This document shows, piece by piece, positions 71 to 45,256 of a stretch of 45,342 nucleotides of DNA. Both the position numbers and the translations under genes were made by a program. This stretch comes from a virus, in IMG/VR virus record IMGVR_UViG_3300048833_000056, positions 1 to 45,342 of that record, one strand, 5' to 3'. The first letter of the stretch is position 1. Each line of letters begins with the position of its first letter. Under the pieces are notes generated by a model. It was given only the letters and a program-made list of their open reading frames with translations, had not been told where the DNA came from and did no database searches.

Positions 71-127
71 TGGTGCGAAAGGCGGGACTCGAACCCGCAC
101 GGGGGTTACCCGTCAGAACCTAAATCT
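71..127 (-). pseudogene. 3' half of host tRNA-Leu(UAG), split by prophage
   Basis: Read on the minus strand this is the 3' part of a class II tRNA-Leu: anticodon loop with UAG, long variable arm, a perfect T-arm (GCGGG/CCCGC around TTCGAGT), acceptor strand CTTTCGC and an encoded ACCA (plus-strand 71-74). Its acceptor strand pairs perfectly with GCGAAAG at the start of the 5' half at the other prophage end (45256-45250), so both halves come from one gene. No tRNA 5' half precedes it here: beyond position 127 the sequence is phage. This half therefore has no promoter or 5' partner and cannot give a tRNA. When the halves are joined, pair 27-43 would be C-A, so the anticodon stem may have four pairs. 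Confidence 0.92.
116..127. other. attL: attL core
   Basis: GAACCTAAATCT, identical to 45216-45227. It is the anticodon-loop segment of tRNA-Leu(UAG) and the only stretch common to both prophage ends at the expected tRNA position. The integrase gene ends 17 bp away, as is usual for tyrosine-recombinase phages. Confidence 0.9.
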
Positions 128-144
128 CCACGGTACTGACGTAA

Positions 145-1293
145 CTACTTGATTGCATAGAGGATTGGACGGTTTTCTGTGCCAATACCTGTCGGTTGTG
201 CCGTCGGTATCGGATGACTACTCTGTACCGGAGGCACATCCGATGCAACGAAGGCATCCAGCACGCTCGATGCGTTGTCCAGGTGACCGGGCATGTACTT
301 CACGTAACGCTTCGTCACCTCGGCAGAACTGTGCCCAAGCCAGATGCGGATCTCGTCCAGGGACACCTTGCCGGACATCGCCAGCCTGGTTGCACAGGTA
401 TGGCGCAGCGTGTGCAGCGTGACCCCCTGGATGCCCGTCACCTTCATCAGCGCGACGAACGGGTCATGGGCATTGCGCGACGTCCAGGTGCCATGCAGCG
501 GGTTGTCCAGCATCGCCAGCAGGGCCACTTCAGCACGCGCCGTCAGGGGCACCACGCGGCCCTTGTTGGACTTCGTCTGGCCCGCCTTGAGGTGTACCCG
601 GTAGCGGCCATTGATGCCCTTGTGGAGGTGGTCACGGGTCACCTGTTCCAGTGCCTCACCGCAGCGCATGCCGGTGTCGATCAAGACGATGAAGAGGTTG
701 TGCATGTACTGCCGGCGGGTGTTGCCCGGGGCGGTGTTGGCCGTGAACCAGTCCAGGCACAGCTTCTCCTCCTCCAGGGTTACGTACCGATCCTTCTCGT
801 TGTGTTCGTCCCACTGCGGCATGTCCGGCATGACGAACCCGGGTTCCTTGCAGAACGTCAGGGCGACGTGGATGCAGGAGACGTAGCGGTTCTTCGTGGC
901 CGGCTGCAAGTCCTTCGCGTTGACCGTGCCGACCTGGAGCGAGTCCAGGTGCTTCTTCAGGCGATCCTTGGTGATCGTATGCACGGGCCAGTGCCCAATC
1001 TCGCGGACGATCTTGCCGACGCGGGTGCGGTACTCGTGAGCCGACTTCGAAGTCGACCACTGCTCCGCCCATGCGTGACGCAGGCAGGCACCCAAGGTGT
1101 CCAGCCGGAGACCTTCAAGCTGCTGCGCGTCCTTCGGGAGGATGTCCACCAGGTGGGAGCGCATGATCTCCAACGCCCGTACCTGCGCCCTGGCGTGATC
1201 AGTCTCGTCGGTGGAGAGCCGCTGGCGGTCGCCGTTGGCGTCCTTGAAGTGGACGTATAGGACGCCCCCTGGCTTGCGTGGTTTCAGTTCCAT
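145..1293 (-). CDS. int: Phage tyrosine integrase
   Basis: A 382-residue tyrosine recombinase that would catalyse integration into, and with help excision from, the tRNA-Leu site. The N-terminal part (about 60-150) resembles a SAM-like core-binding domain. The catalytic domain shows the first Arg in DTGMRCGEAL (about residue 210), the HxxR box in TLHTLRHTC (about 294) and the nucleophile Tyr in LGHSSAEVTKRYVKY (about 329). The start ATG follows GAGAGACC. It lies last in an operon with the repressor-like gene (1773-1447) and a small membrane protein (1450-1307), and its stop is 17 bp from attL. In the excised phage it would sit directly upstream of attP and the RNA polymerase gene, the position known for integrase in temperate T7-like phages. 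Confidence 0.95.
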   Translation of the reverse strand: MELKPRKPGGVLYVHFKDANGDRQRLSTDETDHARAQVRALEIMRSHLVDILPKDAQQLEGLRLDTLGACLRHAWAEQWSTSKSAHEYRTRVGKIVREIGHWPVHTITKDRLKKHLDSLQVGTVNAKDLQPATKNRYVSCIHVALTFCKEPGFVMPDMPQWDEHNEKDRYVTLEEEKLCLDWFTANTAPGNTRRQYMHNLFIVLIDTGMRCGEALEQVTRDHLHKGINGRYRVHLKAGQTKSNKGRVVPLTARAEVALLAMLDNPLHGTWTSRNAHDPFVALMKVTGIQGVTLHTLRHTCATRLAMSGKVSLDEIRIWLGHSSAEVTKRYVKYMPGHLDNASSVLDAFVASDVPPVQSSHPIPTAQPTGIGTENRPILYAIK

Positions 1294-1306
1294 GGTGATT
1301 GGTCTC

Positions 1307-1450
1307 TCACATGAGGCGGAAGATGCCGTAGCAGAAGATCGCTACGCCGATGACGCTGATGATGCCGACGTGGCCGGTTACGACCCCGAGGATGATGCCG
1401 CCGACGATGCATCCGTAGGCGAGGTAGTCAGGTGGTGATGTTGTGTTCAC
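1307..1450 (-). CDS. Small two-helix membrane protein
   Basis: A 47-residue ORF with a GTG start that overlaps the stop of the upstream repressor-like gene (GTGA), suggesting coupled translation. The product has two hydrophobic stretches (about 14-26 and 28-43) separated by a His-Val-Gly turn, so it is probably an inner-membrane hairpin. It stands between the repressor-like gene and integrase and would be expressed in the lysogen. I do not recognise the family. A role in superinfection exclusion is conceivable only from its location. Confidence 0.6.
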   Translation of the reverse strand: MNTTSPPDYLAYGCIVGGIILGVVTGHVGIISVIGVAIFCYGIFRLM

Positions 1451-1773
1451 TGTGCGTATAGAGCCTTGAGGAAGCGCTTGACCAGGGCCGCGCCTTTCGG
1501 CTGCAGGCGGGCGGCTCGATGTGCGCCGTCCTTGGTCAGAAAAAACTCGGTGAGGTCGTGGGTTACGGTGAGGAGCTTGAGGGTGCGGCTGACTCCAGCT
1601 TGCGACGCTTCCATGCGCCGCTGGAGGGTGGTTGAATCAACCCCGTCTGGCCCCGCCTGCGCGACGCGGAGCAGCGCGATTATCTGCCGGAGCGATGCGT
1701 CGTCGCCGAACTGGCTGACCAGCACCTGGAGGGCGTTCAAGGTCTTGTTGATTTCGGTCATCTGCGTTTGCAT
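1447..1773 (-). CDS. MarR-like winged-helix protein, candidate lysogeny repressor
   Basis: 108 residues. Residues 25-70 look like a MarR/winged-helix DNA-binding domain: helices in DASLRQIIALLRVAQ, a recognition helix in SQAGVSRTLKLL, then a wing and a closing C-terminal helix (LQPKGAALVKRFLKAL). RBS AAGGAAGG precedes the ATG. The upstream promoter (1846-1873) contains one exact copy of the 14-bp palindrome that recurs at all suspected control points of this phage. No CI/Cro-type repressor is present elsewhere, so this is the best candidate for the protein that binds the palindrome; that link is inference. First gene of an operon with a membrane peptide and integrase. Confidence 0.75.
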   Translation of the reverse strand: MQTQMTEINKTLNALQVLVSQFGDDASLRQIIALLRVAQAGPDGVDSTTLQRRMEASQAGVSRTLKLLTVTHDLTEFFLTKDGAHRAARLQPKGAALVKRFLKALYAQ

Positions 1774-1811
1774 TGACTTCCTTCCTTGTTGGTGAACGGA
1801 CGGATAGGATA

Positions 1812-1825
1812 ATCCGCCGCCGGAA
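1812..1825. promoter_or_regulatory. Degenerate operator copy
   Basis: ATCCG-CCGC-CGGAA matches the ATCCG-N4-CGGAT palindrome except for the last base. It lies about 25 bp downstream of the proposed -10 of the repressor promoter, with an extra half-site at 1801-1805. It could be an auxiliary operator. Confidence 0.45.
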
Positions 1826-1845
1826 CACTACCACACTGATGTTCA

Positions 1846-1873
1846 AGTATCCGCCAACGGATTGACGGGTAAA
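1846..1873 (-). promoter_or_regulatory. Candidate promoter of repressor-integrase operon
   Basis: Minus-strand TTTACC (-35, 1873-1868), 16-bp spacer, GATACT (-10, 1851-1846). Both boxes are four of six to the sigma-70 consensus. The palindromic operator 1849-1862 fills the spacer and -10, so a bound repressor would block its own promoter. Confidence 0.5.
1849..1862. promoter_or_regulatory. Operator palindrome ATCCG-CCAA-CGGAT
   Basis: Exact 5+4+5 palindrome, one of seven in the prophage. It overlaps the proposed -10 and spacer of the repressor-integrase operon and suggests autoregulation. Confidence 0.7.
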
Positions 1874-1984
1874 GCGTGTTGCCTTCTCGTTGTGTACCAA
1901 TGGTTCGACAGTAAGCACTTCGGTCTCCGTGGCGGTTGAGATTCTGATTTTCTGCGTGCCACGTCGCAGGAATCGAGATTGTCG

Positions 1985-2013
1985 GCTGTTCATAAAACTT
2001 GGTTCTGAACAGC
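1985..2013. repeat. Inverted repeat in repressor-upstream region
   Basis: Perfect 8-bp arms GCTGTTCA and TGAACAGC with a 13-bp spacer. It lies in the 392-bp gene-free stretch 1774-2165, which is visibly richer in A/T than the genes. Could be a regulator site or a hairpin at the end of the transcript from gene 2672-2166; there is no U-tract. Confidence 0.5.
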
Positions 2014-44973: not shown

Positions 44974-45005
44974 CTTTAGGTCTCTCCTATGGTGTGGGCT
45001 TCGCC

Positions 45006-45023
45006 CGATGGTGGCCCTTAATC
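45006..45023 (-). promoter_or_regulatory. Phage RNA polymerase promoter 4 (autogenous)
   Basis: GATTAAGGGCCACCATCG, start at 45006 with a GGG initial sequence, 33 bp before the polymerase ATG. Would allow positive feedback once some polymerase is made. Confidence 0.82.
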
Positions 45024-45037
45024 AAACCCGGAAGGCC

Positions 45038-45051
45038 ATCCGGTAGCGGAT
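45038..45051. promoter_or_regulatory. Operator palindrome ATCCG-GTAG-CGGAT
   Basis: Exact copy upstream of the polymerase gene, 15 bp from phage promoter 4 and about 10 bp beyond the terminator. No clear sigma-70 promoter is seen here; a bound protein could block read-through. Confidence 0.68.
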
Positions 45052-45060
45052 AGTGTAGCT

Positions 45061-45085
45061 CAAATGAAAGCCCGCCGGAGCGGGC
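45061..45085 (-). terminator. Insulating terminator between attR and RNA polymerase
   Basis: Six-pair stem GCCCGC/GCGGGC with a 4-base loop, followed on the minus strand by TTTCATTTG. It lies between the host tRNA promoter at the right end and the polymerase gene, so host transcription entering the prophage should stop here. The U-tract is broken by C, so termination may be partial. Confidence 0.65.
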
Positions 45086-45091
45086 CGTGAG

Positions 45092-45172
45092 GTGTGCCAG
45101 GGAGGTGTGCCAGAGGTGGCGCACGGGGCCAGAAATGTGTGCCAGACCGTGTGCAAGTGTGCCGAGTGTGCC
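45092..45172 (+). repeat. Cluster of GTGTGCC repeats, probable integrase arm sites
   Basis: GTGTGCC at 45092, 45105, 45137, 45157 and 45166, with GTGTGCA at 45149, all in one orientation, 44-124 bp from the attR core. Arm-type sites of tyrosine integrases are short direct repeats at such distances. No gene is found in 45062-45215. Confidence 0.6.
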
Positions 45173-45215
45173 GGTGAGCCGCGGCTAAGTCGTTGAATCC
45201 AAAGGGCGCGAACCG

Positions 45216-45227
45216 GAACCTAAATCT
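45216..45227. other. attR: attR core
   Basis: GAACCTAAATCT, same as 116-127. Marks the right prophage end; the distance between copies gives a 45,100-bp element. Confidence 0.9.
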
Positions 45228-45256
45228 GGTGCGTCTACCAATTCCGCCACTTTCGC
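45216..45256 (-). pseudogene. 5' half of host tRNA-Leu(UAG)
   Basis: Minus strand from 45256: acceptor strand GCGAAAG, D-arm, anticodon stem and loop with TAG, then phage sequence (CGGTTCGCGCC onwards) that cannot fold into a variable arm, T-arm or matching acceptor strand. Joined to 127-71 it makes a full tRNA-Leu. The promoter upstream is intact, so a useless 5' fragment is probably still transcribed. Confidence 0.92.

Follow-up and report, generated by a model that had tools for sequence, protein, structure and literature searches.

A T7-like prophage that splits a host tRNA-Leu(UAG) gene without rebuilding it and carries a complete tRNA of the same anticodon

How can a bacterium live with a prophage that cuts one of its tRNA genes and restores it at neither junction? 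This question is raised by the IMG/VR virus record IMGVR_UViG_3300048833_000056, whose full 45,342 nucleotides were analyzed here (the window). The window consists of an integrated prophage bounded by the two halves of a split tRNA-Leu(UAG) gene, beyond which lie a further 70 and 86 bases of host DNA. A first-pass annotation, made from the sequence alone, had proposed that these halves are one gene, split in the anticodon loop and not rebuilt, and that the tRNA is consequently lost to the host. The host gene is indeed broken and seems to be single-copy. However, the loss of the tRNA did not hold up, as the prophage has a complete tRNA-Leu(UAG) of its own. The findings named in advance as contradicting a loss were rebuilding of the tRNA at 45256 and additional intact copies in the host; a complete tRNA at another position in the phage had not been considered. 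The features concerned, including the left and right attachment sites (attL and attR), are as follows.

71..127, minus strand: host 3' part of tRNA-Leu(UAG), including the attL core; ends in CCA at 71, and the joined gene is intact in loci L195 and L196
45216..45256, minus strand: host 5' part of tRNA-Leu(UAG), including the attR core; begins at 45256 and completes the tRNA when joined
116..127, minus strand: attL common core AGATTTAGGTTC, in the anticodon loop; 12-bp exact repeat of 45216-45227
45216..45227, minus strand: attR common core AGATTTAGGTTC; 12-bp exact repeat of 116-127
2707..2791, plus strand: phage tRNA-Leu(UAG), complete, 85 nt with a CCA end (ARAGORN; Rfam RF00005, 56.7 bits)
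145..1293, minus strand: tyrosine integrase, 382 amino acids (phrog_1, E 2.2e-42; PF00589)

The host gene is split in the anticodon loop by a 12-bp direct repeat, GAACCTAAATCT, found at 116-127 and 45216-45227. Joined at this core, the two halves give an 86-nt tRNA-Leu(TAG) by ARAGORN, confirming that they belong to a single gene. With up to one mismatch allowed, the core 12-mer has four copies in the window compared with 0.05 expected, and none of 100 shuffled sequences reached four. The intact gene that had been proposed for a prophage-free relative is present at locus L195 of genome G516, which has no prophage there and in which 156 of 183 aligned positions are identical and the tRNA itself is 99% identical.

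Neither junction restores the gene. The sole ARAGORN tRNA in the window is at 2707-2791, with none called at attL or attR, and Rfam at its gathering threshold likewise finds one tRNA, at the same position. When the Rfam threshold is relaxed, the attR end scores only 15.2 bits as a tRNA (E 2.7; gathering score 29), and the attL end (positions 1-400) gives no tRNA match up to E 5. These searches rule out a tRNA rebuilt at a junction, including one folding across 45256. The window thus does not belong to the rebuilding type of integration, in which the gene is completed by a tRNA part within the phage attachment site (attP); both of its ends fall below the tRNA threshold.

The joined flanks were searched stepwise against a class-wide sample of 369 genomes, then the family (198) and the genus (38). 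The best matches, in G585, G516 and G441, are 84-85% identical over about 170-190 query bases that include non-tRNA flank. ARAGORN shows the gene intact in all six loci examined, including those of G516 and G441, and it is always the last in a Pro-Arg-His-Lys-Leu tRNA cluster. The G516 region is syntenic with that of Stenotrophomonas sp. ATCM1_4, with long pieces at 73-80% nucleotide identity, which points to a host that is probably a Stenotrophomonas relative (Xanthomonadaceae). A pattern search for UAG leucine tRNAs, which would miss diverged copies, gives exactly one exact match in 37 of the 38 closest-genus genomes and none in G590. The other regular match of the pattern has the anticodon CAG, which should read only CUG, and two weaker matches with two mismatches occur in G468 and G595. 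No spare host copy was seen by this search in the closest genus. As the first-pass annotation had assumed, the split gene appears to exist in one copy in the host lineage.

The phage tRNA-Leu(UAG) has a long variable arm and the same anticodon as the split gene, and it is the only intact tRNA in the window. It lies 2.6 kb inside attL, on the strand opposite to all assigned phage genes. Given this complete tRNA, the function of the host gene has very probably been replaced rather than lost.

We consider it highly likely that the window phage uses tRNA-dependent lysogeny, with its tRNA-Leu(UAG) replacing the cut host gene. The tyrosine integrase would recombine the 12-bp attP core, a bare anticodon loop with a few stem bases, with the host tRNA-Leu(UAG) gene. 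Integration would then cut the gene in the anticodon loop with neither junction rebuilding it, and the phage tRNA, transcribed against the phage genes, would take over the reading of CUA codons. Precise excision would restore the host gene, and only cells that keep the prophage or excise it precisely would read CUA. The lysogen would very probably stay alive while depending on the virus, and the arrangement illustrates how a phage can make its host dependent: prophage loss other than by clean excision would remove the only CUA tRNA. From the split, the short core, the lack of rebuilding, the complete tRNA of the same anticodon, the integrase and the single UAG gene in nearly all closest-genus genomes, all of which are seen in the sequences, we infer that the lysogen expresses the phage tRNA and charges it with leucine, and that viable integration requires it.

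Several observations weigh against this mechanism. A search for sigma-70-like promoters around the phage tRNA gave none (0 in positions 1-4000, compared with 0.8 expected), which bears on its expression. The attP core also matches the phage's own tRNA (2736-2747) over 12 bp (GATTTAGGTTCC), equal in length to its match with the host gene. Additionally, the host chromosome is not part of the record, which is a virus contig, and this very strain may therefore have a second copy of the gene. The tRNA copy at 2736-2747 and the attP core at 116-127 are inverted relative to each other, so recombination between them would invert, not delete, the DNA in between. Separately, this match could make the phage tRNA a second site for attachment, or lead to inversion of the integrase end.

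The mechanism itself is already known, and the window is a further T7-like case, probably in a Stenotrophomonas-like host. tRNA-dependent lysogeny was named and tested in mycobacteriophages, in which the phage tRNA is needed for lysogeny and plaques are clear without it (Guerrero-Bustamante and Hatfull 2024, PMC10865867). The phages Fionnbharth, LeBron and Gaia resemble the window in having a tyrosine integrase, a short core (8-17 bp in theirs), a host tRNA that is not rebuilt and a complete phage tRNA of the same isotype; the tRNA of Fionnbharth also runs against an overlapping phage gene (PMC10865867). However, they are unrelated phages of Actinobacteria that use tRNA-Lys(TTT), tRNA-Ile2(CAT) or tRNA-Leu(CAA). 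In addition, their dependence was demonstrated with mutants and plasmids (PMC10865867), whereas we infer that of the window.

The vTRX32-1-like Rhizobium phages, including RHEph01, are T7-like and use a 12-bp core, CAGATTTAGGTT, in host tRNA-Leu (PMC8631192). We found that their complete tRNA-Leu(UAG) is antisense to phage genes, as in the window. However, their host is alphaproteobacterial and their tRNA adjoins the integrase. According to PMC8631192 this tRNA lacks the motif, whereas the tRNA in the window matches attP. Similarly, uv-Fonsiphage-EPL and the pelagiphages HTVC011P and HTVC025P are T7-like and integrate in host tRNA-Leu(TAG), and in uv-Fonsiphage-EPL the phage's own tRNA-Leu replaces the lost host function (PMC6811365). 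A complete tRNA-Leu(TAG) was found here in HTVC011P and HTVC025P. Unlike in the window, it lies between the integrase and the RNA polymerase on the sense strand, and the hosts are SAR11 bacteria. The window adds to these mycobacteriophages, Rhizobium phages and SAR11 phages a T7-like prophage of a probably Stenotrophomonas-like host.

Pseudomonas phage LUZ100 is also T7-like with an integrase, beside which are an antisense complete tRNA-Leu(TAA) and, after it, a bare CTTAAAA loop. It differs from the window in using the UAA isoacceptor. Its attP stretch CAGACTTAAAA recurs in tRNA-Leu(UAA) pattern matches of some Pseudomonas genomes (one match in 13 of 13), which suggests that LUZ100 uses the same mechanism. 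The T7-like prophage of G712, a genome from the family of the host's closest genus, is in tRNA-Leu(TAG) with a core starting in the anticodon stem. However, its 61-bp core carries the 3' part through CCA, the gene is intact on the integrase side, and a separate phage tRNA was not found. ARAGORN also calls an 89-nt tRNA-Leu(tag) at the opposite end of this prophage, which we read as the 61-bp core preceded by a 5' part that arose by chance.

Do T7-like phages in general either rebuild the host tRNA or replace it? We compared 18 integrase-candidate phages and five controls, hand-picked among the 15 to 40 records listed out of 85, 149 and 2,539 matches, or chosen by accession. Ten T7-like phages combine a complete tRNA with a bare copy, downstream of the integrase, of that tRNA's 7-nt anticodon loop. 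For UAG the loop is TTTAGGT in the window, RHEph01, RHEph21, TRX32-1 and Lo5R7ANS, and CTTAGGA in HTVC011P and HTVC025P. For UAA it is CTTAAAA, in LUZ100 and Limnohabitans phage YIMV22061. The tenth phage, HTVC019P, has Cys-GCA; the 7-mer is common (22 copies genome-wide), but GATTTGCAATC has just two copies, one following the integrase and one within the tRNA. The loop copy is at most 500 nt from the integrase stop in nine of the ten, and shuffled stretches hold it in 2-11% of trials. Because close relatives are among the ten, and because this test sought the carried tRNA's own loop, the ten cases do not count as independent. The stretch tested in the window holds a second, apparently chance, loop copy at 44975. 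The exception is Lo5R7ANS, with no copy within 500 nt of the stop of the matched integrase stretch and with its core some 1.5 kb further on, beside the tRNA. The phage tRNA is not always antisense. It is antisense in nine phages (the window, L004, L006, RHEph01, RHEph21, TRX32-1, LUZ100, the Limnohabitans phage and HTVC019P) and sense in three (HTVC011P, HTVC025P and Lo5R7ANS).

Twelve relatives have a rebuilding site and no spare complete cognate tRNA in the record or stretch searched. A tRNA-Cys 5' half is present at attP in the Pelagivirus phages HTVC201P, HTVC121P, HTVC021P, Jormungand and HTVC131P, and HTVC022P, of the HTVC019P-type group, integrates at a host tRNA-Cys site (PMC12753301). 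Rebuilding cores of 49 and 50 bp occur in tRNA-His (G639 and G704), of 49 bp in tRNA-Asn (L017), of 61 bp in tRNA-Leu(TAG) itself (G712, described above) and of 22 bp at the 3' end of tRNA-Arg (L015). L007 and L235 have 3' tRNA remnants at attP that were read by eye and are unscored by Rfam. The cleanest contrasts are HTVC019P compared with its five Pelagivirus relatives, and G712 compared with the window.

We lean towards the view that temperate T7-like phages have two interchangeable solutions, either a rebuilding tRNA part at attP or a bare loop with a complete tRNA of the same isoacceptor. The loop and the spare tRNA would change together (Leu-UAG, Leu-UAA, Cys-GCA), the second solution would probably have arisen more than once, and within the window's clade the spare tRNA would have been newly acquired or swapped, changing in both sequence and position. 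Some phages do not fit this pattern. L029 has a complete tRNA-Leu(TAA), with no bare CTTAAAA loop in the parts searched and no end repeat of at least 11 bp. It is the one exception among 11 phages with a complete tRNA that were searched for the loop near the integrase. By Rfam tRNA, ARAGORN and tRNA-Cys-type patterns, the only tests applied, no tRNA feature was found in three integrase-bearing phages, S35-C6, Caulobacter S2B and Mycobacterium phage jiawei. L021 and L023 have an intact tRNA beside the integrase, in L023 without a repeat at the other end. No tRNA was found in CRP-227, and no integrase in the fetched stretch of G397. If the pattern is true, the lone tRNA genes of LUZ100, HTVC019P and Limnohabitans phage YIMV22061 would be lysogeny genes that predict the attachment site, which could be sought by matching the anticodon loop of the spare tRNA to the stretch after the integrase. 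Among the papers listed by our searches, titles and abstract openings gave no account of this either/or pattern for T7-like phages, which is weak evidence of novelty.

As a side observation, the T7-like prophages of G639 and G704 (L217, L220, L227, L229) are in the tRNA-His of the Pro-Arg-His-Lys-Leu cluster, which looks like an integration hot spot. The gap between tRNA-Lys and tRNA-Leu is about 5.5 kb in G712 (L221, C1:1945656-1951159) and about 2.4 kb in G704 (L229, C1:3913621-3915994), compared with 74-245 bases in the six intact loci; the larger gaps perhaps hold further inserted elements.

The terminase of the window used as a query matched at least 80 virus loci and 75 genome loci. As a single query the integrase found no relative in genome or virus contigs, and an integrase alignment used as the query gave six loci. 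The nearest relatives are L004, L005 and L006 (terminase 76% identical; L005 and L006 share integrase DNA), each with a complete antisense tRNA-Leu(UAG) directly after the terminase. The L006 record, which includes the attachment site at one end, starts with host-like DNA and a tRNA-Leu 5' half that ends after the anticodon stem-loop, where no tRNA is called; the L004 and L005 records are without an attachment site. The tRNAs of the three relatives are 69-70% identical to that of the window and no more distant from that of RHEph01 (70-73%), and the spare tRNA is located differently in the window and in L004 and L006. The low identity and different location point to a probable separate gain or an exchange of the spare tRNA within this clade, with the arrangement itself persisting. 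The group of the window, L004 and L006 is supported in both the terminase tree (100/99) and the integrase tree (95/97). On both trees the replacing state (the window, L004, L006, RHEph01) takes two changes, for which two gains are the simplest account; the trees left out the other replacing phages, and two of their eight rebuilding labels (L021 and L023) are unproven.

Further RNA features occur among T7-like phages. L005, a copy of the L006-like phage, has additional tRNA genes upstream of its terminase gene (2538-3041 and 4756-4831): one for His, two for Lys and one for Asn. A sense-strand tRNA-Asn(GTT), whose role integration does not explain, occurs in several temperate T7-like phages: L301 (the record of L004), L302 (the record of L006), L259, L236 and L260. 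In RHEph01 it lies just before the major head gene. L007 (L233, 5653-5720) has a type II hammerhead ribozyme match below threshold (30.5 bits compared with a gathering score of 37), possibly by chance.

Many lytic phages carry tRNAs, and the phage tRNA in the window could instead serve lytic growth, through codon supply or resistance to tRNA-cutting defenses, with its match to the disrupted gene a coincidence. The sense-strand tRNA-Asn(GTT) of L004, L006, LUZ100, RHEph01 and RHEph21 fits such a role better. However, the one intact tRNA in the window matches the cut gene, and a loop copy near the integrase accompanies the complete tRNA in 10 of 11 phages; as the search was for the carried tRNA's own loop, chance was judged from shuffles (2-11% per stretch). 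CUA is also not clearly enriched in the phage. It makes up 22 of 9,870 codons in the minus-strand open reading frames (2.2 per thousand), compared with 0.7 per thousand in fragments of G516 (15 of 20,526 codons, in 8 of 43 open reading frames) and 2.8 in fragments of G441 (83 of 30,018, in 35 of 65). Finally, PPpW-4, 3MF5, T7, gh-1 and Laces98, which we take to be lytic and assume to be without an integrase, have no tRNA. We regard a purely lytic role as unlikely.

The authors of LUZ100 explained its tRNA-Leu as a product of imprecise excision (PMC10134795), and the phage tRNA in the window could be a leftover of the same kind. It is of the same isoacceptor as the attachment gene, and its closest match among the tRNAs compared, the tRNA-Leu of G639 in the host family, is 82% identical, making capture from some relative possible. 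However, it is only 72% identical to the split gene, lies well inside the prophage on the opposite strand, and is placed differently in L004 and L006. We consider a mere leftover very improbable, but an old capture kept for its function is possible and would merge with tRNA-dependent lysogeny. The latter would account in functional terms for the lone tRNA genes that temperate T7-like phages carry, one of which has been attributed in print to an excision accident. That the host gene is truly lost, the cell coping through other copies or dispensable CUA codons with the phage tRNA irrelevant, gains from the missing chromosome of the lysogen but is hardly credible given the single UAG gene across nearly all of the genus, the CAG anticodon of the second regular match and the CUA codons in use.

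By its gene content the prophage is a temperate T7-like podovirus (Autographiviridae). All assigned genes are on the minus strand and include a T7-type set: single-subunit RNA polymerase, primase/helicase, DNA polymerase, exonuclease, endonuclease, portal, head assembly, major head, tail proteins, internal virion protein, tail fiber, terminase and a T7-type SSB. In the integrase, R210, K241, H294, R297, H321 and Y330, which we take to be catalytic, fall in invariant columns of the integrase alignment. Other assigned genes are as follows.

1447..1773, minus strand: small regulator-like protein, 108 amino acids (phrog_9665, transcriptional regulator, E 1.2e-5; no Pfam match)
6311..8041, minus strand: terminase large subunit, T7 type (phrog_38, E 7.9e-106)
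24742..25749, minus strand: major head protein (phrog_267)
26815..28341, minus strand: head-tail adaptor (portal) (phrog_449)
32703..34610, minus strand: DNA polymerase (phrog_17)
36402..38126, minus strand: DNA primase/helicase (phrog_239)
42517..44973, minus strand: single-subunit RNA polymerase, T7 type, 818 amino acids (phrog_414, E 2.4e-256)

Adjoining the terminase gene, positions 8153-8716 encode a protein that matches phrog_1040 (peptidase HslV family).

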